Positions 1 through 64,000 of a stretch of DNA of 64,000 bases are shown one piece after another. Every line of letters starts with the position of its first letter. The stretch's first letter is position 1. Below the pieces are notes generated by a model. The model was not told where the DNA came from and made no database searches. It worked only from the letters and a program-made list of their open reading frames with translations. This DNA comes from Okapia johnstoni (lineage: Eukaryota; Chordata; Mammalia; Artiodactyla; Giraffidae): the NCBI GenBank assembly GCA_024291935.2, contig CM044310.1:119112213-119176212 (forward strand). Direction: 5' to 3'. A program made the position numbers and the translations under genes.

Positions 1-1430
1 TCACTGGGGGAGCTCAGTTTGGACAGAAGGAGAGCCTCATTATCTGTGGGAAGAGAACATAGCAACCAGTGTGTGGCAGCAGGACAGAGTGAGAGCTGTA
101 CACAGGCTGCTGACCCCAGCCCGCCACATTCAGCCTGAGAGGCATGTCCACCAATGCAGACAAGGGCTGAGGGCTGGAATGTGGGGTCTGGAGAGCAGAC
201 CAAGGCAGAGGACTGCTGTTGGCTATGAGGAAACATCCTGAAGGGATGAGAGTGTGGGAAGAGCTCTGCCAACGGGAATGCTTGAGGTAAAACCTGAACC
301 ACCATAGAGCAGAGTGCCGTTGGTGAGTGATGGCCAAAGAAGGAGCCCATTGCATCGCTTGTCCCTTATGCTGGCCCCTCCTCAGCGGGGACTACTAAGA
401 ACTCCACCTATGTAGGTCTTTTGATCCCCCAGCCACGGCCTCCCCCATCGACCTCCTCCACATTCAGCAGACCCCTGGGCTCTGGGGCAGTCTCAGGAGC
501 AGACACCTGTGAGCTGGCCACATACACAGATGGAGCTGAAAGCACAGCTGAACCCCAGGGAAAAGGAAGAAAAGCGGAAACCTCTCCTTGCAGCAACACA
601 AGCCATGGTCTTACACCCACGCCCAGCTTTGCAACCTCAGCCCCTACAGAGCATTTGAGTCAACGACCAGGGCTCTCCCAGTCATGGCAGGTGTAGCTTT
701 AGCAGCTGTACACTCTGTGGGCTCCTACACAAGGGGCTGGGGCCAGGACAGAGCCTGAGCTGTCCCAGAGCACCACAGAGGGTCCAGCTCCACGTTGACT
801 GCAATCCCAGGACCTGACTTCTCTGAATCTATGTGGTGACCTTGTGAAAACAACATCTCAGAGACACCAAGGCCATATGCCATCATGCCCATGGTTCAGG
901 TGGGCCAGAGCAGTGCCAACACTAGTATCACATGAGCGCTCGCAGAATGCTTGAGAGGGGCCACCAGAGCACATCCCGAGGTGAACATCCCCAGAGGAGT
1001 AATACTCACCGACTTCCCTCCCAGTGGGTGTGCTCCAGTCCCACCAGCCTGGCACCACAGAACAGAATCACAGCTAAGGATCAGATCTGGGGGCTCTATT
1101 CCACCAAGCAGGGAGCAGGCACCACCAGAGAGAGGGCAGTAACAACCACAGAACAATGGGGAAACAGCCCTGAATATCCACGGCAGGCTCTGGTCACAGT
1201 TAACAGCAATCAAAGCACAGATCAAGAGGATAAGGGCACAAACCTCTAGACCAACCTCATCCACCAAGGGGCAAACACCAGAAGAAGTCTAAGTAGGTTC
1301 CTGTAGCCTTCAAAACAGAGACCACAAATAGAAAGCTGGACAAAATGCGATGGCAAAGAAATAGGTTCCTAGAGGAAGAAGCAAGATAAAACCTACAAGG
1401 ACCACTAAATGAAGAGGAGTTAGGCAATCG
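1..1430 (+). mobile_element. LINE-1 5' region fragment (ruminant L1), cut by window edge
   Basis: Near-identical to 35810-37238, where the same sequence is preceded by an L1-like 5' start (a 'GGATCAAGATG' type opening). It ends in the A-rich stretch with 'AAGATAAAACCTACAAGGACCAC' character that precedes L1 ORF1, but ORF1 itself is absent. The open frames here are short and decayed. It is an intronic insertion shared with the paralogous segment, so it predates that duplication. Family assignment rests on recognition of the ruminant L1 leader, not on a search. Confidence 0.7.
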
Positions 1431-1704
1431 AATGATTACTTCTTGCTTTTAGTCATCTTATTTGGAGACACCAAACACTTTCACAAATCCTTGGTGCCTA
1501 ATAATTCTTTAATCCTCTTCTTGCCACACATGTTTCTGAGAATGGTCTATTAGATGTTTAAATCTAAAAACCATAGATGATAATGACACAGAATGAATCA
1601 AAAACTGAGGACACATAGGACAATGTCTGAGGAAGCTGAATACAATTAAGATAAACTTAATAAAGTACTTGTTTTAAGAAATTAAATAAGAAGAGTCTTT
1701 AAAA
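1431..1704. other. Unclassified intronic sequence between L1 and BovB
   Basis: AT-rich sequence also present at about 37239-37520. I see no gene or recognisable element in it. Confidence 0.5.
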
Positions 1705-3472
1705 CTATGATTGAAAGAGGGAACTCTACTCCTTGCTCTGTGGTGAACTAAATGGGAAGGAAATCAATGCAATGGTAAAGGCTAGAGATCTCTTGAAGAA
1801 AATGAGAGGTAAGGGAATATTTCATGCAAAGCTGGGAATAAAGGACAGAAACGGGATGGACCTAAAAGAAGCAGAAGACATTAAGAGAAGTTGGCAAGAA
1901 TACATGGAAGAACTATACAAAAAAGACGTTAATGACCCAGATAACCACCATGATGTGCTCACTCACCTAGTAACAGACATCCTGGCGTCCAAAGTCAAGT
2001 CGGCCTTAGGAGGCATGACTACCAACAAAGCTAATGCAGGTGACGAAACTCTAGCTGACCTACTTCAAGTCCTAAAAGATCATAACGCTAAAGTTCTGCA
2101 CTCGATAAACCAGCAAATTTGGAAAACTCAGCAGTGGCCAAAGGACCGGAAAAGGTCAGTTTTCATTCCAATGAAAAAGAAAGGCAATGTCAAAAAATGC
2201 TCAGACTACTACACAATTTCCCTCATTTCAAACAATAGCAAAGGCTCAAATTTTTTCCTAGTGAGGCTTTAACAGTGCCTGAGCCGAGAGCTTCCAGATG
2301 TTCAAGTTGGACTTATAAATGGCACAGGAATCAGAGATCAAATTGCCAACATCCCTTGGATCATACAAAAAGCAAGAGAGTTCTGGAAATACAACTACAT
2401 CTGCTTTATTGACTACACCACAGCCTTTGATTGTGTGGATCACAAGAAACTGTGGAAAATTCTTAAAGAGATGTGAACACCTTACCTGCCTTCTGAGCAA
2501 TCTGTGTGCATATCAAGAAGCAACAGTTAGAACTGGACATGTGACAACTGTCTGATTCCAAACTGGGAAAGGAGTACGTCAAGGCTGTATATTGTCACCT
2601 TGCTTATTTAATTTATATGCACAATACATCATGTGACATACTGGGCTGGATTAAGCACAAATTGGAATCAAGATTTCAGGGAGAAATATCTGTAATCTCA
2701 GATATACAGATGATACCACCCTTATAGCAGAAAGTAAAGAGGAACTGAGGAGTCTCTTGATGAAACTGAAAGAAGAGGTTGAAAAAGCTAGCTTCAAACT
2801 CAACATTCAAAAAACAAAGATCATGGCACCGGTCAGATAGTTTCATGGCAAACGGCGGGAGAAACAGTGGAAACAGTGAGAAACTTTAATTTTTGGGGCT
2901 CCAAAATCACTGCAGATGGTGACTAGAGCCATGAAAATAAAAGACGCTTGCTCCTTGAAAGAAAAGCTATGACCAACCTAGGCAGCATATTGAAAAGCAG
3001 AAACATTCCTTTGCTGACAAAGGTCCATCTAGTCAAAGCTTGGCTTTTCCAGTGGTCATGTATGGATGTGAAAGTTGGACCATGAAGAAGGCTGAGCGTC
3101 GAAGAATTGATGCTTTTGAACTGTGGTGTTGGAGAAGACTCTTGAGAGTCCCTTGGACTGAAAGGAGACCACACCACTTCATCCTAAAGGAAATCAGTCC
3201 TGAATATTCACTGGAAGAACTGAAGCTGAAGCTCTGATACTTTGGCCACGTGATGCGAAGAATTGACTCACTGAAAAAGACCTTGATGCTGGGAAAGACT
3301 GAGGATGGGAGGAGAGGGGAAGACAGAGGATGAGATGGCTGGATGGCATTAGTTACTCGATGGACAGGAGTTTGAGCAGGCTCTGGGAGTTGGTGATGGA
3401 CAGGGAAGCCTGGCTTGCTGCAGACCATGGATCACAGAGTAGGACTCGTCTGAACAACTGAACTGAACTGAC
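1705..3472 (+). mobile_element. BovB (RTE) LINE, 5'-truncated, decayed reverse transcriptase
   Basis: The first 180 codons (1733-2272) read as the BovB polyprotein upstream of the RT core. The rest continues as RT in shifted frames: the palm region with a YxDD-like box near 2700-2720, then the '[28 protein letters not shown]' region (3061-3160, short open frame) and the BovB 3' end with 'ACTGAACTGAACTGA' near 3455-3472. Several frameshifts and stops make it inactive. The same insertion sits at 37530-39285 and, truncated, at 24340-24805, so it predates triplication of this segment. Confidence 0.9.
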
Positions 3473-5124
<1,652 letters not shown>

Positions 5125-7156: not shown

Positions 7157-7837
7157 TTCCTCCTCTTCCTGCTGCTCTGCGTCTTCTCGGGGGATGTTAT
7201 GTCGCAAACTCACATCCACAGGTTAAGAAAATACCTTCAAAGGCATCCACACAGCCCTTTCACCTGCAACTGCTGCAGAGAAAATGAAGAAAAAAGGTTC
7301 TTGTTTCTCCAGCCCTTTTCTGAGCCTTTTTTTGGCTTCCTCTGTTCCTGATCGGCAGGCGGCAATCAAGCCTAATCTGACATGCTAATCACATTCTGTG
7401 TTTGGTGCTTACCTTTGGTGCATTCTCTTTGCAGACCACCCCTGAGAGTTCTCCTTTCTTTTTGCATTACAGAGAGCAGGTCACAGTAGAATTCACGCAA
7501 GACAGTGGCCCGGACTACTGACCTAGCTGACACACATTCTGAGGGTTTTTGAGACATCACAAGAGGACGACCCGCATTCAGGAGCCCTGAGCTGCAGCCT
7601 CACATTCCGCACACCTGAGACCTCTCTGGAGCTGATGATTAGGGCGGGAACTTCTAGAAACAAAGGATGTTGGGCTGGTTGCCTGGGGAGGGGCTCTCTC
7701 TAGGATGGGTGTGGCCCTCCACTGCTCTGCCTGTGCCCTTGGGGGAGGGGTGGTGGGGAATGCTTGCTTGGTGGGAATCACCTTGGGACCTTGGATTACT
7801 ACAAAGCTTTGCTCTCGGACAGAAAAGAAAGAAGTGA

Positions 7838-8015
7838 AGTCGCTCAGTCGTGTCCGACACTTTGCCACCCCATGCATGGACTGTACCCTACCAGGCTCCT
7901 CTCTCCTTGGAATTTTCCAGGCAATCGTCCTGGAGTAGATTGCCGTTTCCCTCTCAGGGGATCATCCTGATCCAGGGATCGGACTCAGGTCTCCTGCATT
8001 GCAGGCACCAGGAAA
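7838..8015 (-). mobile_element. Bov-tA SINE
   Basis: Antisense to the tRNA-derived Bov-tA consensus: 'AGTCGCTCAGTCGTGTCCGAC' near its left end and 'GGTCTCCTGCATTGCAGGCA' near its right end. Absent from the matching point of unit 2 near 10645. Confidence 0.85.
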
Positions 8016-8054
8016 GCACCCCAAGAACAAAGGCCCCAAAATGCCTTTCCTTTA

Positions 8055-8275
8055 TCGTGCTAAGTCGCTCAGTAGTGTCCGACTCTTTGCCACCACATGG
8101 AGTGTAGTCAGCGTGGCTCCTCTGCTCTGGGGAGTCTCCAGGAAAGAATATTGGAATATGGGTTGATATGCCGTCCTCCAGGGCATCTTCCTGACCCAGG
8201 AAATGAACTGACATCTCTCGGTGTCTGCTGCATTGCCAAGCAGTTCTTTACCACTAGTGCCACTTTGGAAGCCAC
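8055..8275 (-). mobile_element. Bov-tA SINE (shared with 10660-10890)
   Basis: Second antisense Bov-tA copy, more diverged. The same element lies at the same place in unit 2, so it predates the tandem duplication. Confidence 0.8.
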
Positions 8276-8420
8276 AGGATACCCTGAGTACCTAGGATTT
8301 CTTCACTACCCTCTGCAGCCTGGGGACACAGGTTTTCACAAAATGATTTGCAGCATGACCACCTGTCTGCAGGTGAGGGACCTCCAACTTCAGAGACCAG
8401 GAGCCTGAAGGTGTTTCCAC

Positions 8421-8740
8421 TGTTGCAGAAAACAAGCACCACACTCTGAGAGTTGGAGAACTCAGGTTTATTATGCTGGGGGCCCAGAGGACTTCACACT
8501 CCAAGCTCTGAGCCCCAAACAAAGGGGTTACAGAGTTTTTATACATGGACAGGCATGATTAAGCCGGTTTACAGGGGCTAGGGCAATTGCAAAGAGCAAT
8601 ACAAGGGTGAGTTCCAATTCCTGGTATTGTGAATCCCAGCTTTTTGAGATGTACATGATCAAGACTTTGTAAGGAGCAAGCTGAGTTACAGAGGCAGAAA
8701 GGGCAGGCGGTTGTGTAAAAATTTGAAATTTTCCTCTTCC
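8421..8740 (-). mobile_element. ERV B 3' LTR, copy in unit 1
   Basis: Aligns with 11030-11367 and with the 5' LTR at 22788-23147. Plus-strand ends are TGTTGCAGAA and CCTCTTCC; on the coding (minus) strand it is preceded by a purine tract 'AGGAGGGGCAA'. The TTTATT near 8468 is an antisense polyadenylation signal. Confidence 0.8.
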
Positions 8741-10222
8741 TTGCCCCTCCTGATGCTTCTATCAGTCATTGCAGAAAGCATCATCTCATGTTTGGTAGGT
8801 AATTCAGAGCTCACCTCGTTCAGGGGACTATATTGATCTATTGCCATTTGTAACTTATGGACTGAATTTGAGACGTTATGAACTGGGTAATATCTTTGAG
8901 AATACAAGGGCCAAACAAAAGCGCCGCAAAGAACATGAAGAGAGGACCGGTTAAAGGGAGAAGCCACGATTCCCAGCTGCAGATATTGTTTTGATTACCC
9001 CAGGAATTTGCTAGTTCCTCATACTTTGGCCACCTTGTGCAAAGAGTTGAGTCAATGGAAAAGACCCTGATGCTGGGAACGATTGGGGGCAGGAGGAGAA
9101 GGGGACGACAGAGGATGAGATGGCTGGCTGGATGGCATCACCGACTCGATGGACATGAGTTTGGGTGGACTCCGGGAGTTGGTGATGGACAGCGAGGCCT
9201 GGCGTGCTGTGGATCATGGGGTCCCAACGAGTCGGCCACGACTAAGCGACTGAGCTGAGCTCCCCTTTTCATGATTCATTCCCTAACTGTTGGGCCATGT
9301 CCGTGACTATTCCTAATTGGTTCACATAAAAAGTAGCATTCTTCATTCAAGAAGAGGCAGAGTCCTGCCTTTTCAGCTGTCAGTAGGTCTAGCACTCTCC
9401 TATTCTCTAAAACCACCTCAGCCAGGGAATCGACTTGGTTCTGTAAGGCCACTAAAGATGTGGCTACTCTCTCAATGTTGTCTGCGAAGTCCTTGGATAG
9501 TGTATGGTAGAAGGTGATTGATGAAGCAATTCCTCCTATTCTAATACTTAGCCCAGCCAAAATTTCCAAACCAACTAGTAGGGATATAAACTGGATGGCT
9601 CTTTATGACCACCTATGTGCTGGCAGAGGTACGGTGAGAGTCTGGTTGTTAGGGCCAGTATTCATCTGTGGAGTGAGGAAAGCTACGGTGCACATACCCA
9701 TCCAACTTACTGGTAGACATTAAGTAAGCATCTGTCCCACAAAGAAAAGGCCTTGATGGGGCGGCACCATATTGTCTGTGGGAAGATGAGTGGGCCACTC
9801 ACCTTTTACAGTTTAATTACATTCGTCCCTGGCTAAATTGCCTACAGCTTCAGTTCCTCCATGATTTGTAAAGCATTCTGGAGCCTTTTGAGATAACTCC
9901 ATTGCCCTTAAGACTGGCCCTTGTAAGGGTGGACCTATGGGAGTCCCCATGGCTCTGGCATTATTTTGATGGTACTGGTGTAGCTAAATACAGTGGAGCT
10001 CCTAAGGATGAGCAAAGGCTGGAATCCCTGGCCACCTAGGGGTTGGTGTCATTTAGATGGTGATGAGTTGCTTTGGGAACCTGGTATGGACTAGGGACTA
10101 AGGGGGAGTTAACTGTGTAACCTGGGTCATACTGCCAACAGGCAGAGCCTGATTTTTTCGGGCAAAGTTGGTCCGCGATTTCATTTGTCTGCATTATTGT
10201 CCTTGTCCAGTAGGTTTTTCCA
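8741..10222 (-). pseudogene. ERV B env fragment (surface C-terminal part and transmembrane subunit), broken
   Basis: Gammaretrovirus-like envelope read on the minus strand. From high to low coordinates it shows a surface-subunit part (about 10222-9600), a fusion-peptide-like glycine/isoleucine-rich stretch (about 9569-9520), the conserved ectodomain with '[14 protein letters not shown]' and a Cys-x6-Cys motif (about 9410-9340), then after a BovB insertion (9018-9262) the hydrophobic membrane anchor (about 8970-8890). In these families the motif is usually Cys-x6-Cys-Cys; here the last Cys is Tyr. Frameshifts, the BovB insertion and the missing N-terminal part make it non-functional. Confidence 0.8.
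9018..9262 (+). mobile_element. BovB 3'-end fragment inserted in ERV B env
   Basis: Matches only the last ~245 bp of BovB ('CTGATGCTGGGAACGATTGG', 'GGAGTTGGTGATGGACAG'). Unit 2 at about 11650 is uninterrupted at this point, which marks the insertion as unit-1 specific. Confidence 0.85.
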
Positions 10223-10659
10223 TTTATCTGATATCTAATCTCATTCTGTGTTTGGTGCTTACCTTTGGTGCATTCTCTTTGCAGACGACCCCTGAGAGTT
10301 CTTTCTTTTTCTATTACAGAGAGCAGGTCACAGTAGAATTCACGGGAGACAATGGACCCGACTACTGGGCTAGCTGACACACATTATGAGGGTTTTTGAA
10401 ACATGGCGGGTGAAGACCTGCATTTAGGAGCCCTGAGTTGCAGCCTCACACTCTGCACACCTGAGACCTCTCTGGGGCTGAGGATTAGGACGGGAACTTC
10501 TAGAAACAAAGGAAGTTGGGCTGAGTGCCTGTGGAGGGGCTCTCTCTAGGATGGGTGTGGCCCTCCACTGCCTCTGCCTGTGCCCTTGGGGGAGGTTTGG
10601 TGGGGGATGCATGCTTGGTGGGAATCACATAGGGGCTTTGCTCTCAGAATTCTTCCCAA

Positions 10660-10890
10660 AGATGCCTTGCCTTTAGCGTGCTACGTCAGACTCTGCCTGC
10701 CCATGGACTGTATGTAGCCCGCCTGACTCCTCTGTCAATGGGGAGTCTCCAGGGAAGAATACTGGACTGGGTCGCCATGCCCTCCTCCAGGGGATCTTCC
10801 TGACCCAGGAATTGAACTCACATCTCTCGGTGTCTCCTGCATTGCCAAGCAGTTCTTTACCACTAGTGCCACTTTGGAAGCCACAGGATA
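10660..10890 (-). mobile_element. Bov-tA SINE, diverged (unit 2 copy)
   Basis: Same element as 8055-8275, with the shared right end 'CCAAGCAGTTCTTTACCAC'. Confidence 0.75.
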
Positions 10891-11029
10891 CCCTGAGTAC
10901 TTAGGTTTCTTTCACTACCCTCTGCAGCCTGGGGACACAGGTTTGCACAAAATGATTTGCACTGTGACCACCTGTCTGCAGGCGAGGGACCTCCAACTTC
11001 AGAGACCAGGAGGCTGAAGGTCTTTCCAT

Positions 11030-11367
11030 TGTTGCAGAGAACAAGCACCACACTCGGAGAGGTGGAGAACTCAGGTTTATTTTGCCCGCGGGCCCAGAGG
11101 ACTTAACACTCCTAGCAATGAGCCCCAAACAAAGTGGTTACAGGGTTTTTATACATGGACAGGCATGATTAAGAGAGTTTTCAGGTTTGCAGGGGCTAGG
11201 GCATTTGCCAAGAGCAGGACAAGGGTGAGTAAGATAAATTCCAGTTCCTAGCATTGGGAGTCCCCACTTTTTGAGACCTACGTGATCAAGACTTTGCAAA
11301 GAGCAAGCTGAGCTACACAGGCAGAAGGAGCAGGAGATTACATAAAAATTAGACCTTTTCCTCTTCA
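11030..11367 (-). mobile_element. ERV B 3' LTR, copy in unit 2
   Basis: 338 bp with plus-strand ends TGTTGCAGAG and CCTCTTCA. A purine tract ('AGAAGGAGCAA') precedes the U3 edge on the coding strand, as expected of a 3' LTR. Confidence 0.8.
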
Positions 11368-11877
11368 TTGCTCCTTCTGGATGCTTCTACCACTCATTGT
11401 AGAAAGCATCATCTCATGCTTGATAGGACATTCAGAGCTCCCCATCGTTTAGGGGACTATATTGAGCTATTAACATTTGTAACTCTATGGATTCAATTCG
11501 AGAGGTGATGAATGGGGTACTATCTTTAAGAATACAGGGGCCAAACAAAAGCACCACAAAGAACATGAAGAGAGGACTGGTTAAAGGGAGAAGCCATGAT
11601 GCCCAGCTCCAGATACTGTTCCAGTTACCCCAGGAATTTGCTACTTCCTCTCTCCTTTTCGTGGTTCATTCCCTTAGCGGTTGGGTCATGTCTTTGACTA
11701 TTCTTAATTGGTTTACATAAAAGCAGAATTCTTCATTCAAGAAGAGGCAGAGGTCTGCCTTTTCAGCTGTCAGTAGGTCTAGCCCCCTCCTATTCCTTAA
11801 AACCACCTCAGCCAAGGGATCTAGTTGGTCCTGTAAGGCCACTAGATGTGGCTACTCTCTCAATGTCGTCTGTGTGT
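11368..11877 (-). pseudogene. ERV B env transmembrane fragment, unit 2
   Basis: Membrane-anchor region (about 11600-11520) and the ectodomain part (11870-11640) matching 9480-9263. It is cut at 11877 by the ERV A LTR; no intact frame. Confidence 0.7.
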
Positions 11878-12358
11878 TGTAGCCACGCGTTCTGGGAAAC
11901 AAACCCACCCAGAAAACAACGCAGATAGTGGAGTGCAGCTTATTACACCGGCGGGCCCAAGGCAGAGTCTCCTCTCAGCCAAGGACCCCAGCAGTTTTTG
12001 TGAAAGCCGTATACACCCCAAGTGTATAAAGGTTCCCTGAAACTAGTCTGAAGAAAGGAAAAAGACAGATACACTCGAAGTTAACCTGCGATCATATGCC
12101 TTAAGCCTCGGTAGTTAACAGTGGACAGTTATCAATAGGCCTGTGGTCATACCCCAACAAGCATAATAGAGTGTATGATTCTATTCGGTTACACAGATAA
12201 TTAGGGTACTCTTTCAGGCTTCGGAGAGCCCTGGGGCTCTTCCTTCCGGGGACCTGGCTTTCCAGGATGTATGTCGTTTTCATAGATACTGCTCAGAGAG
12301 CTCAAAGTCCAAAGTCCAGCCCAAGATGCAGTCCTGCTTTCCGGTGGAGCCTGTTGTA
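11878..12358 (-). mobile_element. ERV A 3' LTR
   Basis: Aligns with 19335-19796. Its U5 edge on the plus strand is TGTAGCC. The U3 edge lies beside a purine tract (GGGGAGGAAGGAGGA on the coding strand, 12359-12373). The TTATTA near 11940 is an antisense polyadenylation signal. Compared with the 5' LTR it keeps about 17 bases more at the U3 edge. Confidence 0.8.
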
Positions 12359-12373
12359 TCCTCCTTCCTCCCC

Positions 12374-14806: not shown

Positions 14807-15290
14807 TCCATTTATTGTTTAAAGTTGTCAGCTATGAAAGCCGGGCCATTGTCTGATCCAATGCTGGTAGGAAATCCAAATCTGGGAACTATTTCCCTAA
14901 GCAGCCACCGGGCTACTTCTGATGCTCTTTCAGTCCGGGTAGGAAACACTTCTACCCATCCCGAGAATGTACATACCACGATCAGCAGGTAACGGTAGTG
15001 TCGGTGAGGTTTCATTTCAGTGAAGTCCACTTCCAGGTGTTCAAAGGGCAGCGTGCCTTTCAGCTGAATCCCCAGAGGTTTTTGTCTGTGCCGAGAGGCA
15101 GCATTGACCTGTGAGCAGGCCGTGCAGTTCTGAGGTTCTGTCCTGCATAGGGAAGAGAGGTGGGGAACCAAGAAATATTTTCGAATTAGCTCTTCCAATA
15201 TATCATGTCCTAGGTGGGATGCTTGGTGTGTTTGGCTTACCAGTGTGGGTGCCAGCTCCTCCGGTACCAATAAGTTGCCACTTGGCAATT
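14807..15290 (-). pseudogene. ERV A pol: integrase N-terminal half
   Basis: An open minus frame of 158 codons with the HHCC zinc module (H-x3-H … C-x2-C, about residues 21-64) and the first two catalytic Asp residues: 'VDFTE' and 'GSDNGPAF'. The third catalytic residue lies beyond the BovB insertion. In an undisturbed provirus it would mediate integration of viral DNA. Confidence 0.9.
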
Positions 15291-15499
15291 CCCACCGTCC
15301 CTTTTCAGTCCTGATGGCCCCCTTCCACTTTGACTGTTGGTTTTAGGCTTCAGTGGACTCCCATGTTAGCTCAGGCAGCTCCGCCAATACGAGAGCTTTA
15401 ATAGGGGCTTCACTTGTCACCCCCAGCCCTCGGCTGCTTATTTAGCGGTCTTATCTGCCAGTCTGCTTCCCCGAGCCTGGGGGGTATCCTCTTTTTGAT

Positions 15500-16440
15500 G
15501 TCCTCAGCAGTGTATGACTGCAAGGCCTTCTGGTTCCCAGACAGCATCTAGTAGGGTCAGGATTTCTGCTTTATTTTTAATGTCCTTTCTGTTGGCTGTC
15601 AGAAGACCTCTCTCTGTATATAAAGCCCCACGTACATGTAAAGTAGCAAAAGCATACCTGGAGTCTGTGTAAATGTCTGTCTTCTTACCTTTTGACAGCT
15701 GGAGGGTCCAGATTAGAGCATATAGTTTGACCCGCTGAGCAGACCAGTGTGATGGCAGAGAGCTAGCTTCAACGAAGGTTTCTTCCATGACTGCTGTATA
15801 TCCCGACAGTCGTCCTTGTTTCACCAGGCTGGTGCCATTGCTGTGCAGGACCCAATATGGCTCCGGGATTGGCTGGTTCTCAAGTCAGGTCTGCTGGCAT
15901 AAACTTCTTCTAGGATTTCCTTGCAATCATGTGAGGGCCCACCTTCTCCCACAGGAAGGTGAGCGGCAGGATTCAGGGCCTGACAAGGCTCAGTAGTAAC
16001 ATGGGGGTTCTAACATAACAGTCTCTGGTACTGAGCAACCCGGGATGTCAACAGCTGTTTATGGGGGCCCCCTCGTAGGAGAGTGTTGACCTCATGTGGG
16101 ACTTTTACAATCAAATCTTAGCCCAAAGTCAGCTTGGTTGCCTCTGAAACCAGTAAGGCAACCACAGCAACTGCCCGTAGGCATCCCGCCCACCCAGTGG
16201 CAGCATTGTCCAGCCGTTTCAAGAGAGAAGCCACAGGTCTGTCCCATGTCCCCAGGCTGGGACAACACTCCCATAGCCACCTTGTCCTTTTCAGTCACGT
16301 AAAGAGTAAACAGCCAAGCAAGGTCTGGCAGGCCCAAGGCAGGTGCTGACATAATTGTACTGGGTTTGAGTTCTATTACCACTGGGACTTGTTTTGCAAG
16401 CCTGGGAGTGTTGTCTTCTGCCCAGACCTCTGGGAATTGT
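15500..16440 (-). pseudogene. ERV A pol: RT start joined to RNase H, catalytic RT core missing
   Basis: From high to low coordinates: an RT N-terminal segment ('FPEVWAEDNTPRLAKQVP', about 16440-16370) runs straight into the connection/RNase H start ('ALGLPDLAWLFTLYVTEKDK', about 16330-16270). The RNase H body with 'DIYTDSRYAFATLHVRGA' follows (15824-15504). The segment that should hold the YxDD catalytic box is absent. Several frameshifts lie between 16090 and 15830. Confidence 0.8.
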
Positions 16441-16446
16441 TGAGTT

Positions 16447-16448
<2 letters not shown>

Positions 16449-16507
<59 letters not shown>
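16449..16507. repeat. (CT)n microsatellite inside ERV A pol
   Basis: About 26 uninterrupted CT units followed by TTCTCTC. It sits at the protease-RT boundary of the provirus and translates to Arg-Glu repeats on the minus strand, a low-complexity artefact. Confidence 0.98.
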
Positions 16508-16559
16508 GACTTTCAGCCCATCCGGTTTCCCTTCCGAGAGATTGTGCAACCTCCATTTA

Positions 16560-16770
16560 TTTTTGAGGGGTTACTAAGAGGAAGAGTTAATAAGTGGTTG
16601 GGCCCACTCAAAAAGTGGGTCTTTCATGGGAGTGGGGAAGGTCACTTGTGCCCCTAAGTTAGACAGCAAGTCTCTTCCCAACAAAGGTACTGGGCATTGA
16701 GGGATGAATAAAAAATTCATGAGTCACTTGGTGTCCCCCCATCTGATATTTTCAGGGGAGGCTTGAAACA
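16560..16770 (-). pseudogene. ERV A protease remnant
   Basis: Near 16720-16640 the minus strand reads 'PVPLLGRDLLSNLGAQ', the C-terminal hallmark of gammaretroviral proteases. The catalytic DTGA box is not seen, so only the C-terminal part survives. Confidence 0.65.
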
Positions 16771-16966
16771 CAAAGGCTGCATTTATCACCATCTGCGTAT
16801 AAACCATACAGCCCTCGCACACTCTTTTGTAGAACTCAGAGGGTGATTCACTTTCCCTTTGAATCACTTCGGAGGATTTTGCCCTACTTATAGGTTTTCG
16901 GGCCCCCTCCTCTTGAGACCTTGTAAAATGGCTGCCCGATATCTCTCCAGGCAGCCCCTCCCTTCC

Positions 16967-17191
16967 TCATAGTCTCAACTGAGCCTCCCTTATAGTCTCA
17001 ACTGAGCCTCTCATAGGGGTGGCTAGTTCTGCCCACCGCTGCAGGTTTGCAGTACCCTCAGGTGCCATTTCTCTTAGCCATTTTCTAGCCTCAGTTAGGA
17101 TCCTGTGTCTGTCCTCAGTGCTGAAGAGGGAGATTAGAAGTTGGATTATCTCATCCCATGTAGGGCAGTGGGTTCGAAAAATAGTCTCCAT
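16967..17191 (-). pseudogene. ERV A gag capsid fragment
   Basis: An open minus frame of 74 codons with 'CPTWDEIIQLLISLFSTEDR' and a following 'EARKWLREMAPEGT', the conserved gammaretroviral capsid C-terminal region. The flanking gag is frameshifted. About 17192-17940 is probably more gag, with no convincing frame. Confidence 0.8.
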
Positions 17192-17939
17192 TAGTCAAAT
17201 CTGGTAATAATAGGCTACAGGGGTGCTGATGGACGTGGCCGTCTGCCCCCTGAACCAGAGGCTGCTGTAACTCTCTCGGGGGCATTTGTCTGCAGCCTCT
17301 GTTTGATTCTGGTGTCTCCTTTCCCCTTCCTGTCAGTACTCACTGGGTGTAGCTTGGGCGGTTCAGCTGCAGCCGGATCCTGGAAGTGCTGGCCAGAGGC
17401 TTCTGCCACCGGGATCTGAGCCTGCCCAAGGGGCGGCTCTACGACCTCCGGGAGAGCTGGCGGAGGATAGCGGCTGCTGCAGGAGCTTCACCGGGCCCTG
17501 GACTGGGCATTAAGGCGCCCTCCGGTCCTGGTGGAGCACTGGGTGGTGGGCATGTCATCATTCAGTATGGGAGAGGGGCAGGTCATCCTCGTGCAAATCC
17601 TGCCAGATCCCAGAGGGAGAAGTCGGATTGGCGTGTCTTCACCTTCCAGTCAACACGACTGAACCAGAACTCCATGTGGTCCAAGACTGTATCTCCCTTA
17701 AAGTTCATTCTTACTGGGAGCCGTTCTGGAACTACTGCCAGATGACAGTCACGGCACCGCTCAAGAAGAAATTGCAAATCGGTTTCTCTCCTGGATTGGA
17801 ACCTTCCCTCCTTCCTCTTTCTGTGCTTTTGTTGTGGCTAACTGTTTCATTCCTTGATGGCTGGAGTTGTAGGGGCTTCCGTGATGAGGTCATGAGAGTC
17901 CAGGAAAAAGAAAAATGATCCCTTGCCCCAGAGAAACAT

Positions 17940-18640
17940 TCCAAAAATGATTAAACCTACCGAGGCCTTTGACTTGTGGGTCCCTAACACTCAACCAGGG
18001 AATAGGCCATGATCATTTGGAAAACAAGCCCTAAGCCTATTGTGACCTGGCCTCATGAGGAAATTGTTATTGATGACTGGAAAACCTGGGTCACGTATGA
18101 GGGAAAATTACAGAAACTAAGCCAATTGCCTTTTCCCCTCAGAATGTAAGCATAAACGGAAAAGAACTATATGAATTGTATTGTAAATGGTTTCTAGGTA
18201 AACGGCAAAAGACTTGTCCCTCCCAGAAATAGTCTTGTATTATGTGGGTAGATGGTAAACAAACCATCACTGACAATGGCTGTACTATGAGAAACTTTGG
18301 CACTTAGACACCACTACAGTACTTATTCACTGAAGCAAGACGCTGTATTCGCGGGTGTAGCAGGCTGTACAGAATAAGTAGATGGAATGATATGATTCAT
18401 AGACTATGTTTTAGTAAAATAAAAATAGGTTTCGGGGTAAACATGTAACCAAAATGTGACAAAGGACTAGGAAAAAACTTTTAACACATCTTAGAATCAG
18501 GGGATGTTGATCTGAACGGAAAAATATTGTAAGAGTCATTACGTAGAAGAACATGTGCTATATAAATAGAGACCAAAGCAATAAAGATTATGGTCCTTGG
18601 GCCATCAAAAAAACTCTGTTTCTTTCTTTCCTCTTGCCAA
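17940..18640 (+). mobile_element. Opposite-strand insert: possible env-LTR scrap of another ERV
   Basis: Here the plus strand, not the minus, looks decayed-coding: an open 46-codon stretch at about 18009-18149 ('SPKPIVTWPHEEIVIDDWKT') and further pieces to 18290 in shifted frames. Downstream comes an LTR-like promoter/terminator pair: TATATAAATAG at 18559 and AATAAAG at 18580. This suggests a plus-oriented envelope plus LTR fragment, perhaps of betaretroviral type, lodged in the ERV A leader. The family call is a guess. Confidence 0.35.
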
Positions 18641-19314
18641 CGCCGTTCATGCCTTGGGGACCCCTGGACCAGCTGGAGCGGGACTCCGGCACATTCTGCC
18701 TTAGTGGGCTTGATCAGGTGTGGATGAAAACACAGATGGGTTAAATATCCTGCATCCCAGGCTGTCTCCGGAAAAGCCAATTCATACTCACTTATGTATC
18801 CCACTCCTTCTAGCCTGACAATTCCAAGGGGGTCAAGAATTTCACGGCAGATGGGACACCTCCTGGGGGAGGGTAGAATACGAGCACACAAGGACGAAGT
18901 TTCTTCTCCTAAAAATCCCTTGGCGATTGCTTGGTAATAATCTTCCCCAAGACAGCGTGGACACACCTCCTAAATGACCTTCCTAAATTTCCTTTCTAAG
19001 CCCCAACATGCTCTTTCGTCTATGTACCAAGCAATTGCTGCCACCTGCCTATTCCAGGCTCCTGTGGGTCCTTGCCCCTTCTAGTCCCTCCCAGGGGGGT
19101 GATCAGGCTCCCTTTTCCACCCTGCCGGGTGGGTTCCTTGTCACCTGAGCGCTCAGTTCCCCTGCTGCAGTCCACTACCTGCTAACGTGAAAGGTCCGGG
19201 CGTTGAGAAGCAGAATCCTTCCAGAAGGGCGAGACGCCTTTGCCTATCTAGAAGATTCAAGCCTCAAAGCCTCGGAGTAGTCCCAAATGGACTTGTCTCC
19301 TTAAAGTGAGAAGT
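18641..19314 (-). other. ERV A 5' leader
   Basis: Lies between the primer-binding site and gag. A minus frame 18966-18481 is open for 161 codons, but its second half is antisense to the TATA/AATAAA segment described for 17940-18640. No known product is recognised. Confidence 0.5.
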
Positions 19315-19334: not shown

Positions 19335-19796
19335 TGTAAGCCACATGTTCTGGGAAACAAACTCACTCAGAAGGACAATGCAGATAGTGGAGTGCAGTTT
19401 ATTACACTGGCGGGCCCAAGGCAGAGTCTCCTCTTAGCCAAAGACCGCGACCAGTTTTTGTGAATACCTTATATACCGTAAGTGTATGAGGTTCCCTGAA
19501 ACTAGTCTGAAGAAAAGAAAAAAGAAAGATACAATCAAAGTTAACCCACGATCATAAGCCTTAAGCCTATGTAGTTAACAGCGGACAATTATCAGTAGGC
19601 CTGTGGTCATACCCCAATAAGCAAAATAGAATGTATGATTCTATTTGGTTACACAGAAAATTAGGGTATTCTTTTAGGGGATGGAGATCCCTGGAGCTCT
19701 TCCTTCCGGGGGCCTGGTTTTCCAGTTGATATGTCGATCCATAGATACTGGGCATGTAGCTCAAAGTCCACATCCCGGCCCAAGATGGGGTCCTGC
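19335..19796 (-). mobile_element. ERV A 5' LTR, U3 edge truncated
   Basis: Aligns throughout with 11878-12341. On the plus strand it starts TGTAAGCC and its last matching bases are TCCTGCTTTC, after which the 3' LTR continues with CGGTGGAGCC but this copy enters the 111-bp repeat array. The terminal ~17 bases of U3 are thus missing. Confidence 0.85.
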
Positions 19797-20927
19797 TTTC
19801 TGTTCCCTGAGTGGTTGTGCTGGGCCTTGTGGAGTCAGGGGAACATACGGCGGGGGCAGCATTGGGTCTTCTAGTGAATCTCCCTGGAATATAGACTTTT
19901 TTCTTGCTTTCTGTTCCCTGACTGGTTGTGCTGGGCCTTGTGGAGTCAGGGGAACATACGGCGGGGGCAGCATTGGGTCTTCTAGTGAATCTCCCTGGAA
20001 TATAGACTTTTTTCTTGCTTTCTGTTCCCTGACTGGTTGTGCCGGGCCTTGTGGAGTCAGGGGAACATACGGCGGGGGCAGCATTGGGTCTTCTAGTGAA
20101 TCTCCCTGGAATATAGACTTTTTTCTTGCTTTCTGTTCCCTGAGTGGTTGTGGCGGGCCTTGTGGAGTCAGGGGAACATACGGCGGGGGCAGCATTGGGT
20201 CTTCTAGTGAATCTCCCTGGAATATAGACTATTTCCTTGCTTTCTGTTCCCTGAGTGGTTGTGCTGGGCCTTGTGGAGTCAGGGGAACATACGGCGAGGG
20301 CAGCATTGGGTCTTCAAGTGAATCTCCCTGGAATATAGACTATTTCCTTGCTTTCTGTTCCCTGAGTGGTTGTGCTGGGCCTTGTGGAGTCAGGGGAACA
20401 TACGGCGGGGGCAGCATTGGGTCTTCTAGTGAATCTCCCTGGAATATAGACTTTTTTCCTGCTTTCTGTTCCCTGAGTGGTTGTGCTGGGCCTTGTGGAG
20501 TCAGGGGAACATACGGCGGGGGCAGCATTGGGTCTTCTAATGAATCTCCCTGCAATATAGACTTTTTTCTTGCTTTCTGTTCCCTGAGTGGTTGTACTGG
20601 GCCTTGTGGAGTCAGGGGAACATACGGCGGGGGCAGCATTGGGTCTTCTAGCGAATCTCCCTGGAATATAGACTTTTTTCCTGCTTTCTGTTCCCTGACT
20701 GGTTGTGCTGGGCCTTGTGGAGTCAGGGGAACATACGGCAGGGGCAGCATTGGGTCTTCTAGTGAATCTCCCTGGAATATAGACTTTTTTCTTGCTTTCT
20801 GTTCCCTGAGTGGTTGTGCTGGGCCTTGTGGAGTGAGGGGAACATACGGCAGGGGCAGCATTGGGTCTTCTAGTGAATCTCCCTGGAATATAGACTTTTT
20901 TCTTGCTTTCTGTTCCCTGACTGGTTG
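19797..20927 (-). repeat. 111-bp tandem array in ERV B gag (PPPY-coding units)
   Basis: The marker TGTTCCCTGA/C starts at 19801, 19912, 20023, 20134, 20245, 20356, 20467, 20578, 20689, 20800 and 20911, exactly 111 bp apart: ten full units and a partial eleventh. Units differ at only a few bases. Since 111 is 3 x 37, frames run through many units on both strands. The minus frame with 'DPMLPPPYVPLTPQGP' per unit resembles the gag segment after matrix, where PPPY motifs recruit the budding machinery; two upstream units read PLPY and one PSPY. Two units (near 20229 and 20340) have a TAG in this frame. Confidence 0.95.
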
Positions 20928-21166
20928 GCCACATATACCCTACTTTGCTCCTGTCGTTTGTGCAAAATCCTGCCAATGGGGGCACGGTCAATGCGGTTAG
21001 AAGACAGGAGTTTGTGTATGGAAACTGATCTCGACATCCTGGAGTCCCAGTGACTCCCTGGTCCACTGCTTGGACAGTGGGCAGGACGAGTGCCCTCTGG
21101 CGGCCATCCAACCTCAAAGGATTGCCAATGGAGCTCACATAAATTGCAAAGCTTCGTGGGGGTCAT
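20928..21166 (-). pseudogene. ERV B gag matrix fragment
   Basis: ATG at 21164-21166 opens a frame with 'LCELHWQSFEVGWPPEGT', the gammaretroviral matrix N-terminus. The homology then shifts frame ('GVTGTPGCRDQFPYTNS') before entering the repeat array. At least one frameshift is therefore fixed. It lies directly upstream (in coding direction) of the 111-bp array, as the p12-type segment should. Confidence 0.8.
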
Positions 21167-21179
21167 CTTGACTTCATAA

Positions 21180-21654
21180 TCTCCTGCAAGTTCAGTTCAG
21201 TTCAGTCGCTCAGTTGTGTCCGACTCTTTGCAACCCCATGAATCGCAGCACGCCAGGCCTCCCTGTCCATCACCAACTCCCGGAATCTACCCAAACCCAT
21301 GTCCATCGAGTCGGTGATGCCATCCAACCATCTCATCCTCTGTAGTCCCCTTCTTCTCCTGTCCCTAGTTCTTCCCAGCATTAGGGTCTTTTCCAATGAG
21401 TCAACCCTTCTCATGAGGTGGCCAAAGTATTGGAGTTTCAGCTTCAACATCAGTCCTTCCAATGAACACCCAGGACTGATCTCCTTTAGAATGGACTGGT
21501 TGGATCTCCTTGCAGTCCAAGGGACTCTCAAGAGTCTTCTCCAACACCACCTTTCAAAAGCATCAATTTTTCGGCGCTCAGGTTTCTTCACCGTCCAACT
21601 CTCACATCCATGCAAGACTATTGCAAAAAACATAGCCTTGACGGTCTCCTGCAA
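21180..21654 (-). mobile_element. BovB 3' fragment with 10-bp target-site duplication, in ERV B leader
   Basis: Antisense BovB tail of about 455 bp, flanked by TCTCCTGCAA at 21180-21189 and 21645-21654. It separates the ERV B leader from the gag start by insertion only. Confidence 0.92.
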
Positions 21655-22765
21655 AGCCCTTCTTAAAGTTGTTTATCATGCATTCTAAAACTGTTGGCTT
21701 AGAGGAACTTCCACCCATGTTGACAAATGTAATCTACCTGGCAGGGTTTTGAGGAAAACCTAATCTCTTAGATGCCGGCTCAAGGAGTCAGTGGACAAAA
21801 GAATAATCAGTAACCAATAATTTCTCCCTCCCTGTGTATCCTGACCTGAGTTGGTGGCAAAAAGACAAACAACGGTGGGTGCCCCTTCAAAAGAGGAGAC
21901 CATTTAGGTGCCCCCTTGGCCATGCACCCAGGGGGATCTTAGGTGCCTCTTAGCACTGGCAGATCAGTATAAACCGCTGATCCAGATCTGTCTCGCAGGG
22001 AGGGACTGGGTTCCCCAGAGGCAGACAATGCCTTGAGCGTATGAGGTCACCAGGGACCTGCAAGTTAGGGTCCACTCGGACTCCGTAGCCATAAAGGCCG
22101 AGAAGCCACACAATTGAGCCTGAAGCTCAAGCGAATCAGGCAACACACGGGTTCACATTGATTTTTCCTCCACCTGGCCGCTCTCCTGAGGGAGATGTAA
22201 GATTCCTCTTAATATTGGCAGGTCGGTACAAACTCCCAAACCGGACCAGCCTCACAGGGAGGGATCAAATCCCCAAGAGGCTGGCACAGCCTTCCAGCCT
22301 TATGAGGTCATCATGGAACCACAGGTTTTGGACACTCTCAGTCTCTGTAGTCCGTGGACTGTGACGCTCACTTTCACTACCCTCAATCAGCAATCATGCA
22401 TACACAATCACTCAGAGGTTAACACAATACCTCCCTTTTCCTGAGTCCCTAAGTCTTCCTATCTGATGCTCCCTTCCTGGGAGCTCCAAGGAGGTGATCA
22501 GTCTCCTCCTTTACCCATTGGCGTAAGAACTCCTGACTGGGGACTGGTCCCGGGACATTACCTGATCCTGAGGTCATTCCTGGCGAGTTGGCCGGTCCCT
22601 GCCATGAGTCCAGTCAGGGCTCGGCCATCCAGAGGGTTGGAACACAGGTCCGAAAGAGAACCTGGAATACCACCAGGTGTCATGCCTCCTTGTCTGTCTC
22701 AGGGTCCTCTGCTCTCACCTGGCTGAGCCATCAGTCCGGTGGCTCAAGGGGCCGGTGTGGTTGGA
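21655..22765 (-). other. ERV B 5' leader with an imperfect internal duplication
   Basis: Two related blocks, about 21938-22120 and 22194-22365, share 'CAGGGAGGGA', 'CCCCAAGAGGC/CCCCAGAGGC' and 'TATGAGGTCA' at a spacing of about 256 bp. No coding frame is convincing. Leaders of this kind usually hold packaging signals and the splice donor; none can be pinned here. Confidence 0.5.
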
Positions 22766-22787: not shown

Positions 22788-23147
22788 TGTTGCAGAAACC
22801 AGTACTTGAGAAATCAAGCACCATAGGCAGAGAGTTGGAGAACTCAAGTTTATTACACCGGTGGGCCCAAAGGAGTGAACACTCCAAGCGCTGAGCCCCG
22901 AACAAAGGGGTACAGAATTTTCATACATGGACAGGCGTGATTAAGCAGGTTTGCGTATTTGCAGGTTTGCAGGGGCTAGGGCGATTGCAAAGAGCAGGAA
23001 AAGGGTGAGTGAGATAAGCTCCAGCTCCTAGTATTTTGACTCCCCAATTTTTGAGACCTACATGATATAGACTTTGCAAGGAGCAAGCTGAGTTACAGAG
23101 GCAGAAGGAGCAGGAGATCAGGTAAAAATTTGAACTTTTTCTCTTCG
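22788..23147 (-). mobile_element. ERV B 5' LTR
   Basis: About 360 bp, aligning with 8421-8740 and 11030-11367. It stops at the same U3 position (plus-strand CTCTTCG). The TTTATT at about 22850 is an antisense polyadenylation signal. Confidence 0.85.
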
Positions 23148-32945: not shown

Positions 32946-35437
32946 CTAGGGTTTCTCTCCAGTGTGTGTTCTCAGATGTCTAGTGAGATAAGCACTACGA
33001 CCAAAGGCTTTGCCACATTCTGTACATTTATAAGGTCTCTCTCCAGTATGAATTCGCTGATGTTGAGTAAGCGTTGCCTTGTAACCAAAGGCTTTGCCAC
33101 ATTCTGGACATTTATAAGGTTTCTCTCCAGTATGAACTCGCAAGTGTGTAGTAAGAATTGAGTTCCAAATAAAGGTTTTGCCACATTCTGTACATTTATA
33201 ACGTCTCTCCGCAGTATGGATTCGCTGATGTTTAGTAAGAGTAGCACTGTTAATAAAGGCCTTACCACATTCTGTACATTTATAACATCTATCCCCGGTA
33301 TGAATTTGGTGATGTTGAGTAAGGAACAAACTCGTAATAAAGGCTTTGCCACAGTCTTGACATTTATAAGGTCTCTCTCCAGTATGAATTTGCTGATGGT
33401 GGGTAAGATGTGAGCGCTGAATAGAGGCCTTGTCACAGTCTTTACATTTATATGGCTTCTCTCCAGCATGAAGTCGCTGATGTTGAGTAAGCTGAGAGCA
33501 CTGAACAAAGGCTTTGCCACATTCTTTACATTTATAGGGTCTCTCCCCAGAATGAATTCGCTGATGTCGGGTAAGAGTTGAGCGAAGGTGAAAGGCTTTG
33601 CCACATTCTTTACATTTGTAAGGTCTCTCTCCAGAATGAATTCGCTGATGTCGGGTAAGAAGTGAGCGAAGACGAAAGGCTTTGTCACAGTCTTTGCATT
33701 TATAAGGTCTCTCCCCAGAATGAATTCGCTGATGTCCAGTAAGAAGTGAGCGAAGACGAAAGGCTTTGTCACAGTCTTTACATTTATAAGGCTTCTCTCC
33801 AGTATGAATTCGCTGATGTTCAGTAAGTTGTGAACACTGACTAAAGGCTTTGCCACATTCTGTACATTTATAAGGTCTCTCCCCAGAATGAATTCGCTGA
33901 TGTCGGGTAAGAACAAAGCAACTGTGAAAGGCTTTGCCACATTCTTTGCATTTATAAGGTCTCTCCCCAGAATGAATTCGCTGATGTCCAGTAAGAAGTG
34001 AGCGACGATGAAAGGCCTTGTTACATTCTTTACATTCATAAGGCTTCTCTCCAGTATGAATTCGCTGATGTTGAGTAAGCTTTGTGCGCTGAATAAAGGC
34101 TTTGCTACATTCTGTACATTTATAAGGTCTCTCTCCAGTATGAATCCGCTGATGATAGGTTAGCTGTGAGCAAGAGATAAAGGCTTTGCTACATCCTGTA
34201 CATTTATAAGGTTTCTCTCTAGTATGAATTCGCTGATGTTCAATAAGTTGTGAGTTATAAGTAAACACTTTGCCACATTCTGTACATTTATATGGCTTCT
34301 CTCCAGTGTGAATTCTCTGATGTTTAGTAAGAAGTGAGCGAAAGTTACACACTTTGCTACGTTCTGTACATTTGAAAGCTTTCCTTTCTGTATGAACTGT
34401 CTTATGTATACTTAGATGGCATGACTTACTAAACACTTTCCCACATATTTTACACTTGTATTCTTTCTGTGGATTCTGAACAGTGTGCTGTTGAATAAGT
34501 TCTGAAGACTGATTAGAAACCTGACCATTTTCAGTACAAGTCCTCTCTCCAGTACAAGTCCTCTTATCTAGAGAAAAACCTGACATTTGATAAAAGGTAT
34601 TTCTGCATTTATTACTTTTAGAATCTCTGTTTGAAGATTCGGGTCCCTGATGTTTCATAAGGTTTGAGTCTCCATCAACCATACACCCAGTTTTATTGCC
34701 TGAATACCCTCTCACTCCACCATAAACACTCTTATAATTATTGGAGCTGGAGCTCTTACTTAAGGTCTGACTCATGTTATTACACATGGAAAGCTGTTGT
34801 GTATTAACCATATCACAATCTGTTTTGAACAATGATGGCTGGATTGCGTCTCTTCCATTATCATCAACACTACACATCTTGGAATGGAGAGAAAATATCT
34901 GTTGGGGGAAGAATAATGATCCCCTGCTCATGGATCCCTCAAATTGATTAGATTGTGAGTCTTCCCCTTCATTGTTAAATTGTAGGTGTCCAGACATGCT
35001 TGAATGTATGTTTAGTCCAAGCCTACATTCAGAATTGTCTGAATGAGTATTTGCAGTAGAGACAAGATTACCTTCCAGATCTTCCACGTTTCCTTTCATA
35101 GAACACGTATCTTTCAAAAAAGGATGGAAATCTTTTCTTAAACTCTTACACTTCTCAGCAAATGTGAAAGACTGAAGCTGGTGTTTTTCCCAATTTGACT
35201 CACGTTTCTCATTTCTTTTTGCAGTAATGTTAGCATTATGTGTAACTGTCTCCATTTCTTTAAGTCCATATAAACATCCTCTCTGTCTTTCATATACCCT
35301 CATATATTCCCAGTCTTTCATTAAATTTAAGCTTCTGAGGTGAAATATTTGATATATTCCTAGGTTTGCTTTTGGCAATACATCTTCTAACACTGGATTC
35401 TTCGGCATCAAATCCTGGGTGTCATGTGGAGACAGAG
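32946..35437 (-). CDS. Terminal exon of KRAB zinc-finger gene X: 18 C2H2 fingers
   Basis: Sequence-specific DNA-binding repressor exon. It opens after a TTTCAG acceptor in phase 1, which fits the KRAB-A donor at 40511, and runs 829 codons to a TAG at 32946-32948. A non-finger spacer of about 320 residues ('[20 protein letters not shown]' near its start) is followed from about 34460 by 18 fingers in tandem to the C-terminus. Finger 2 is degenerate (second Cys is Arg, core Phe is Cys); finger 13 has Ser for the core Phe. Contact residues (-1,2,3,6) from finger 3 on: YSQE, SSQY, QTKQ, RSLG, SFVR, QSQE, LSLG, LSLR, LSTR, QSQQ, QSHH, TLFQ, NATK, WSIT, YATQ, RAYR. Linkers alternate between TGEKP/TGERP and SGERP. 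No named orthologue is claimed. Confidence 0.96.
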
Positions 35438-35539
35438 CTGAAACATACCAAATAACAAGTAATTTTACCTGCTATTCACAGTGAATATCTTTAAAGATTT
35501 AGAGAAAATTGATGAAGATAGCTAGTTTAAAAATAAAAT

Positions 35540-58560: not shown

Positions 58561-58599
58561 TAGATTCATGAATAGGGGTCAGGTATAATATGAGCGATT

Positions 58600-60172
58600 T
58601 AGAGAGTAGGGAGAATCGATCATAAGAAACATCTAATTAGAACGATGCTTCCCAGTACAGTGAGATAACAGGCAGCTAACCACAGCTTCTGACCCAAATC
58701 CAAGTCCTGGGGTGCGACTGAAGCTAGTCCTGTATCGAGGAGCACAGCAATAATACCAATCAGGGATAGAGGCCAGGGTTGACAATAAAAATCCATTGAT
58801 ATGTTGATAGCCAGATCATCAAGCTTCCACCATGCGTTGACCAGCCAGCTGCTGGAATGTGGCTGGAGCAAGGCTGAGGAATCCTCAAGCTTCTGCTGTA
58901 CGTGGTCTAGTCAGCTTCCGGAGCAACTAAAGCAGGGCTCAGTGTCTTTTGTGGGTGAGAGCTGTTGCTTTTGGAACCAGAACTTGATGGGATTTACGGA
59001 GTCCCAAACTGTGTCCTCATTACAGGAAGCCGCTGCCTTCTTGACTCTAGTGTGGTGGATCCAAGGCATGACGCCTGTAACTTTAAGAGCAGTAGGGGTT
59101 GCCAGGACAACCGTGTGAGGGCCTGTCCCAACTGGCTGACATGGTTCTTTTTTCGAATCTTTACCCATACCTCATCTCCTGGCTGATTGGCATGAACCCA
59201 ATTGCCCAAAGGAATGGGTGTCCTTTCTAAGGTTTCTCAGGTGATATGGTGGAATACTTTCCCCATGATCTGGAGGTGTCGGAGCATCTCCAGGTCAGCT
59301 AGTTGTTGGGGGTTTCCCTTGAGTTTTCCTATTACTGGGGATATTCTCCCATTTAATATCTCAAAGGGAGAATAGCCTGAGGACTCAGGGTGCATCGGGC
59401 TCAGAGTAAGGCTGGGGGGTAACATATTGACCCAAGATAACTGGTCTCCTGACAGAGTTTAGCTAATGTAGTCCTGAGGGTACAATTCATGCGTTCAACT
59501 TTCCCTGAGCTCTTTGGCCTATAAGCGGTGTAAAGCTTCCATTTGATTCCCAGTGTCCAGGATAAAGTTTGGATTATCTGAGACACAACCGCTGGCCCAT
59601 GGTCAGACCCTATGGAGAGAGGCAGCCCATATCTCTGGATCATGTCTCTTCACAGGGCCTTGTTTACTTCTCATGCCCGTTCAGTGCATGTGGCCCGTTC
59701 AGCCCATCCCAAGTAGGTGCAGACTACCACAAGGAAATACTTAAAACCCCTATAGGGCTTGACTTCAGTAAAGTCTACTTCTAGACCTTCAAAGGGCAGT
59801 GTCCCAACTGTCAGCACCCCTGGGTTGGGTCTCGGTCCTTGGCTGGCGTTGTTTTGCACACAAGTCACACAGCTAGCCCTGATCTGTGCACACAGGGCTG
59901 GGAGCTAAAAAACGAAATAGTAGCGGCTCGGTAAGCTCTCCAGCAGAGCTTTTCCTAATGGAGTTTTCTCATGATGTTGTTTTACCAGCTGGATTTCTAT
60001 ATTGCTGGAGACAAAGAGTCTTTGGTCTGGGAACTTCCAGCAGCCCTCTTTTTCTTTTATTCCTCCCTCATTTAGAGTCCATTGATCTTCTTCCATGGTA
60101 TACCTTGGGGACGAAGGCAATTCTGGTGCCAAGAGGACCTTAAAGATTGACTTGGGGCCCACTGTGGGGCTC
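58600..60172 (-). pseudogene. ERV D: integrase and env start of a gammaretrovirus-like provirus
   Basis: Minus strand, high to low: integrase N-terminal zinc region with 'LFVSSNIEIQLVKQHH' (about 60010-59950), core with 'VDFTEVKPYRGFKYF' (59790-59740) and 'IGSDHGPAVV' plus 'GKVERMN' (59620-59490), giving all three catalytic acidic residues, and a C-terminal module 'GPHTVVLATPTALKVTG' (about 59120). An env-like hydrophobic frame follows at 58871-58620. The pieces lie in different frames and several stops intervene. No LTR, gag or RT is present; its 5' side is cut by BovB at 60175 and its 3' side ends near old L1. Confidence 0.85.
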
Positions 60173-60174
60173 GG

Positions 60175-63644: not shown

Positions 63645-64000
<356 letters not shown>

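Follow-up and report, generated by a model that had tools for sequence, protein, structure and literature searches.

A tandem array of a gag late-domain segment in the okapi genome, most likely an ordinary minisatellite born within an endogenous retrovirus

The window analyzed here is a stretch of 64,000 nucleotides from the okapi (Okapia johnstoni), which holds, on its minus strand, the remains of two endogenous retroviruses (proviruses A and B) and, where these meet, a tandem array designated array W (Table 1). TRF places the array at 19794-20927, with a period of 111, 10.2 copies, 96% matches, 0% indels and a score of 2114. A repeat search gave a start-to-start spacing of 111 in all nine steps, in agreement with the original prediction of ten units at an exact 111-bp period. 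By form, array W is a minisatellite, consisting of near-identical units arranged head to tail. The predicted scarcity of differences between units was likewise recovered: pairwise comparison of the ten units in the gag register yielded 0-8 differences (mean 3.9 of 111), and a second register yielded a mean of 3.84 and a maximum of 7. When neighboring units were compared with a shuffled order, the excess similarity was not significant (P 0.085). In one minus frame, every unit had been predicted to carry a PPPY or near-PPPY motif. All ten do carry a PPPY-type motif (LPPPY in seven units, LPLPY in two and LPSPY in one), but an identical TAG stop interrupts this frame in two adjacent units. Over the array, the second minus frame contains one stop and one plus frame is fully open; thus, an open frame by itself says little.

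Table 1. Features of array W and the surrounding proviruses (positions in the window).
Feature	Position	Strand	Basis or remark
Array W, ten 111-bp units (37 codons each)	19818..20927	-	TRF and unit comparison
W unit 1, gag sense	20817-20927	-	
W unit 10, gag sense	19818-19928	-	
Partial 11th unit of W, 24 bp	19794..19817	-	
Broken gag matrix (MA) of provirus A	20928..21718	-	ATG at about 21718, frameshifts
Insertion in provirus A matrix	about 21190-21650		copies elsewhere in the window
Part of provirus A 5' LTR	22809..23146	-	related LTR copies at 11036-11366, 8427-8739
Provirus B 5' LTR, first 30 bp missing, fused to array W	19339..19800	-	
Provirus B 3' LTR, then CACA and env of provirus A	11881..12367	-	
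Gag capsid, RNase H and integrase remains between provirus B LTRs	14812..17300	-	

The insertion within the matrix of provirus A is presumably of ART2/BovB type, and we take the stretch between the 5' LTR of this provirus and gag to be its leader. On its far side, array W abuts the LTR of provirus B rather than gag, a feature missed by the original prediction; this LTR is followed by what are presumably a primer-binding-site-like sequence and a leader. Between the LTRs of provirus B, Pfam identified RNase_H (2.3e-10) and rve (4.6e-13), and a capsid-like stretch was recognized by eye only. The pairing of the LTRs and the paralogue P described below ruled out provirus A as the source of the capsid and pol sequences at 14.8-17.3 kb; these remains belong to provirus B. 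They also include a CT/GA dinucleotide microsatellite of 29.5 units (16449-16507). Within the gag region of provirus B, an LTR-like sequence (17700-18690) lies in the orientation opposite to that of the provirus, with TATA-like and AATAAA-like signals noted by eye. Elsewhere, the env end, LTR and flank of provirus A are tandemly duplicated (7375-9020 and 10226-11650; pieces 84% and 89% identical; flank K2P 0.104), and the 3' LTR of this provirus is therefore present twice.

The minus strand of the array region reads as gag of a class-I (gamma-type) endogenous retrovirus, and the unit as the start of p12, including a PPPY-type late motif, directly after the matrix. Alignment with relatives makes it clear that the matrix adjoins array W upstream on this strand; the Pfam match of Gag_MA at this position is weak (E 0.061, below the cut-off). 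A protein search with the array frame returned 18 relatives among the 7995 best candidates, two of which are named proteins, both from muntjac deer. The profile built from these 18 proteins gave 263 matches. Among the best 120 of these 263, the unit core occurs in 33 proteins, exactly once in each, with PPPY as the late motif in nine, PLPY in ten and other forms in the remainder. Six relatives were scanned with Pfam: two contain Gag_p30 above the cut-off together with a weak Gag_MA, whereas Gag_MA is above the cut-off in three and weak in one. The order is the one described for gammaretroviral p12, in which a PPPY-type late motif lies between MA and CA (PMC4798954, PMC8402826). The p12 of MLV and ERV-Fc is described in the accessible parts of these papers with a single PPPY, unlike the broken gag of W, which has PPPY in seven of ten units. 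Recruitment of NEDD4-type ligases, and thereby budding, is a putative role of the unit motif, and gag in W is broken. Several other leads were set aside. The Pfam matches obtained with frames of the array, among them ACTL7A_N, fell below the cut-off, pass on no single stretch and are attributable to chance from repetition, and polymerase eta, the only match of a PDB sequence search, was rejected (E about 0.5). In viral contigs, an exact 35-base unit pattern had no match; searches with the unit protein (viral contigs) and with an alignment (viral and genome contigs) gave pattern matches, none of which was confirmed as a relative.

A search for family members with one, two or more units, suggested by the original prediction, was carried out in the 2.38-Gb assembly. 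Both genome searches score the best candidates (12 and 15), and the locus counts are lower bounds. A two-unit query found W, a second array (P) and at least ten other places at 77-84% identity. A query with a single-copy relative found at least 12 loci spanning the segment, its own included, with one match each; the match spans (260-294 bp) leave no room for an extra unit. The same query returned the ten units of W, the three of P and a partial locus, C18, that ends near the unit start. Each of the ten loci fetched (L010-L019) contains one BLAST match. Thus, none of the 12 other loci among the matches listed, and none of the 33 core-bearing proteins (best 120 of 263), represents a multi-unit state in an independent insertion, and P is the sole other multi-unit array among the matches listed. 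It had also been considered that the unit might be a satellite unrelated to gag. No such dispersed satellite was found, as the ten unit matches outside W and P (L010-L019) all align as MA-p12. The proposed placement of a late domain after an ERV gag matrix accordingly stands, both in the alignment of relatives and in P, which runs into capsid.

Array P lies at C6:119035865-119036182, about 96 kb from W and in the opposite orientation. It has three units, the third of which passes unbroken into an ordinary p12 C-terminus and capsid, where Gag_p30 is found (3.5e-13), giving the order MA, units, p12 and Gag_p30, with PPxY between MA and CA. The PPPY frame of P is open for 250 codons (L009:4833-5582) from the array to the start of capsid, at which a short repeat is inserted. 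P further retains env of provirus A and pol-like sequence recognized by eye, and one of its stretches matches the RNase H stretch of provirus B at 74.5%. The two copies differ by 2.1% over 4.6 kb upstream of the array (K2P 0.021), by 3.0% in the matrix part and by 2.8% over 5.0 kb of provirus B, with a K2P of 0.021-0.031 over the shared flanks, and they have matrix damage in common. On these grounds, P is recognizable as a segmental, inverted copy of the same provirus A as W. C2H2 zinc-finger sequence on the minus strand (32946-35471 and 63649-64000; an 841-codon frame with an 84-bp finger repeat) also belongs to a duplicated neighborhood. A further duplicated block is represented by positions 1-4000 and 36-40 kb of the window, both of which match one stretch near P (L021) at 88-93%, and 58566-60175 (minus strand) shares 84-90% similarity with the pol-like sequence of the provirus at P.

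Comparison with P also accounts for the junction between array W and provirus B. In P, provirus B begins inside env of A (L020:1210) after ...TTCACA; together with the CACA that follows the 3' LTR of B in W, this fits a 4-bp target duplication in env of A. Provirus B had integrated before the deletion in W, which removed all sequence between a point within an array unit and base 30 of LTR B; by coordinates, this amounts to 5956 bp from the end of array P to the shared point in LTR B. The joint in W is GAAAGCA in gag sense (19794-19800), a 7-bp microhomology that extends to 10 bp with a variant present in units 3 and 5. Since the joint falls inside a unit, the non-integer end of array W is a deletion scar.

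How a single segment could have become a tandem unit is suggested by its borders. Most single-copy relatives carry GTGGCMCAACCACTC on one side of the segment and GCACARCCAGC on the other, or sequences close to these, which provide direct repeats at the MA-p12 boundary (CAACCA ... CARCCA, within GCMCARCCA). Among the nine relatives with a readable upstream motif, the DNA spacing of the repeat cores is 111 in two and 112-122 in seven, the differences being mainly indels in an A-rich run. One of these relatives (L018) has the upstream core CATCCA at a spacing of 119, read from positions by hand; a tenth (L019) is without the upstream repeat, and the downstream repeat is CAGTCA in L016 and L018. 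At the protein level, 15 spacings were measured, with 37 aa in eight, 38 in five, 36 in one and 40 in one. In both W and P, the joint between units reads GCACAACCACTC, with the downstream repeat on the left and the upstream repeat on the right. The equality of unit length and repeat spacing, along with this order at the joint, is expected from slippage or unequal exchange between two repeats. The single-copy precursor has the arrangement required by the short-repeat birth model, i.e., direct repeats at unit spacing on either side. Two points count against the model: the exact DNA spacing of 111 is found in only two relatives, and the downstream CAGTCA of L016 and L018 departs from the repeat.

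The variation among units bears on the timing of these events. Mean differences per 111 bases are 3.9 within W, 3.3 within P and 3.7 between W and P. Only two of the 17 variable unit columns are common to both arrays, 12 being confined to W and three to P, which suggests that the array was probably nearly uniform at duplication; unit W2 is identical to unit P3. The LTRs gave K2P values of 0.186 and 0.165 for provirus A and of 0.157 between the 5' and 3' LTRs of provirus B. In comparison, unit divergence (3.5%) is about that of the paralogues (2-3%) and about a fifth of that of the provirus A LTRs, consistent with the recent expansion or homogenization predicted from the array. The low value relative to the LTRs implies that the array arose, or was last homogenized, after provirus B interrupted env. 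Because homogenization can make an old array look young, its birth cannot be dated from the divergence of the units alone; complete homogenization of an older array may have occurred, although nothing independent points to one. With two fixed rates, read as 2.3 and 5 per billion sites per year in the part of PMC3879100 available, provirus A would be roughly 16-40 million years old and the W-P duplication roughly 2-7 million years old.

Taken together, array W very probably represents a minisatellite that was born within gag of provirus A, a defunct class-I endogenous retrovirus, after the insertion of this provirus. Two short direct repeats, 111 bp or slightly more apart, bracket the late-motif segment in most single-copy relatives and would have been the starting point. 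Slippage or unequal exchange between them may then have produced the first tandem copy, with a unit length equal to the spacing. At least two units appear to have been present before the inverted segmental duplication gave rise to W and P, a step that is well supported since both arrays share the joint and unit types. The argument from shared types is weakened in two ways: at column 77, one of the two shared columns, the C/T difference falls on a CpG and could have arisen more than once, and unit types could also have spread by conversion between W and P. Local unequal exchange or conversion would subsequently have set the unit numbers of the two paralogues (10+ in W and three in P), a comparison between paralogous loci and not between alleles of one locus. 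Finally, as the comparison with P shows, a deletion of ~6 kb at the 7-bp microhomology fused a W unit to LTR B and cut off the natural 3' end of the array. This sequence of events would need no present function for array W. Against the minisatellite reading, 111 is 37 x 3 and keeps the frame, as a coding origin also predicts.

The original prediction had offered two options, amplification as a multivalent budding motif while the virus was active or growth as a minisatellite afterwards. The second is favored by the single-copy relatives, the segmental nature of P and the low unit divergence, whereas nothing positive was found for the first. An origin in the infecting virus, which would have carried two or three p12 late-domain units that the host later homogenized and expanded, is very improbable. 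In its favor, the unit is in frame and carries a late motif, the open frame of P extends from the array to the beginning of capsid (250 aa), homogenization can conceal age, and duplicated late motifs are known elsewhere, as in the PTAP duplication of HIV-1 (PMC8402826). However, among the matches listed, all other family loci and proteins (at least 12 loci and 33 proteins) have one unit, the units are about five times less diverged than the provirus A LTRs, and the sharing of only two of 17 variable columns points to an array that was probably near-uniform when duplicated. It is very improbable that the multi-unit state of P specifically was present in the infecting virus or briefly expressed, with the ten-unit array as a later overgrowth; if true, Gag would have had multiple PPxY motifs, and each molecule could have bound more NEDD4-family ligase. 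Selection for a multi-PPxY peptide, for the plus-strand 440-codon product or for a regulatory repeat is extremely improbable: long frames are open on both strands, but the stop occurs in two units, gag is broken upstream, the plus-strand frame had no relative among 7987 candidates scored, and the 14 changes in the PPPY frame of W (seven nonsynonymous, six synonymous and one stop, against 9.3, 4.1 and 0.6 expected) fit neutrality, the synonymous excess being small-sample with P 0.21. Equally hard to credit is an assembly artefact giving a wrong unit number or making two loci of one; tandem arrays are often mis-sized in assemblies, but W and P are followed 3' of the array by different sequences, diverge by 2-3% over 4.6 and 5.0 kb and have private unit variants.

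The minisatellite reading agrees with a known model. Haber and Louis proposed that minisatellites are born by exchange between short flanking direct repeats (PMC6947457). As in the transposable-element minisatellites discussed in the accessible part of that source, a single-copy segment lying between repeats of 5-10 bp gives rise to the unit, and the array lies inside an LTR element and expanded later (PMC6947457). W departs from those minisatellites in that it derives from coding sequence of gag p12 and its unit preserves the frame, and in that the single-copy, 3-unit and 10-unit states persist together in a single genome. Mouse minisatellites of MaLR origin, such as Ms6-hm, likewise derive from an LTR retroelement, but from an LTR rather than gag, judging by the title of the work cited there (PMC6947457). 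In the PTAP duplication of HIV-1 (PMC8402826), a late motif was also copied in gag; that duplication, however, occurs in a replicating virus, whereas array W resides in a host-resident relic. As far as titles and abstract beginnings go, no paper on a gag p12 tandem array was found among those listed, and a report on a tandem-repeat enhancer (PMC13373173) had, in its accessible part, no bearing on the question.

Thus, the array is most likely the outcome of ordinary minisatellite birth and not of viral adaptation. Its value lies in being an unusually complete case: within one genome, the precursor is present at no fewer than 12 loci, next to a 3-unit copy that retains its natural flanks on both sides and a 10-unit copy shortened by a deletion. 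The birth of a minisatellite can therefore be read step by step, with the unit length tied to the distance between two short direct repeats. The case also calls for caution, as late motifs repeated in tandem within an endogenous gag are not necessarily a sign of viral adaptation.
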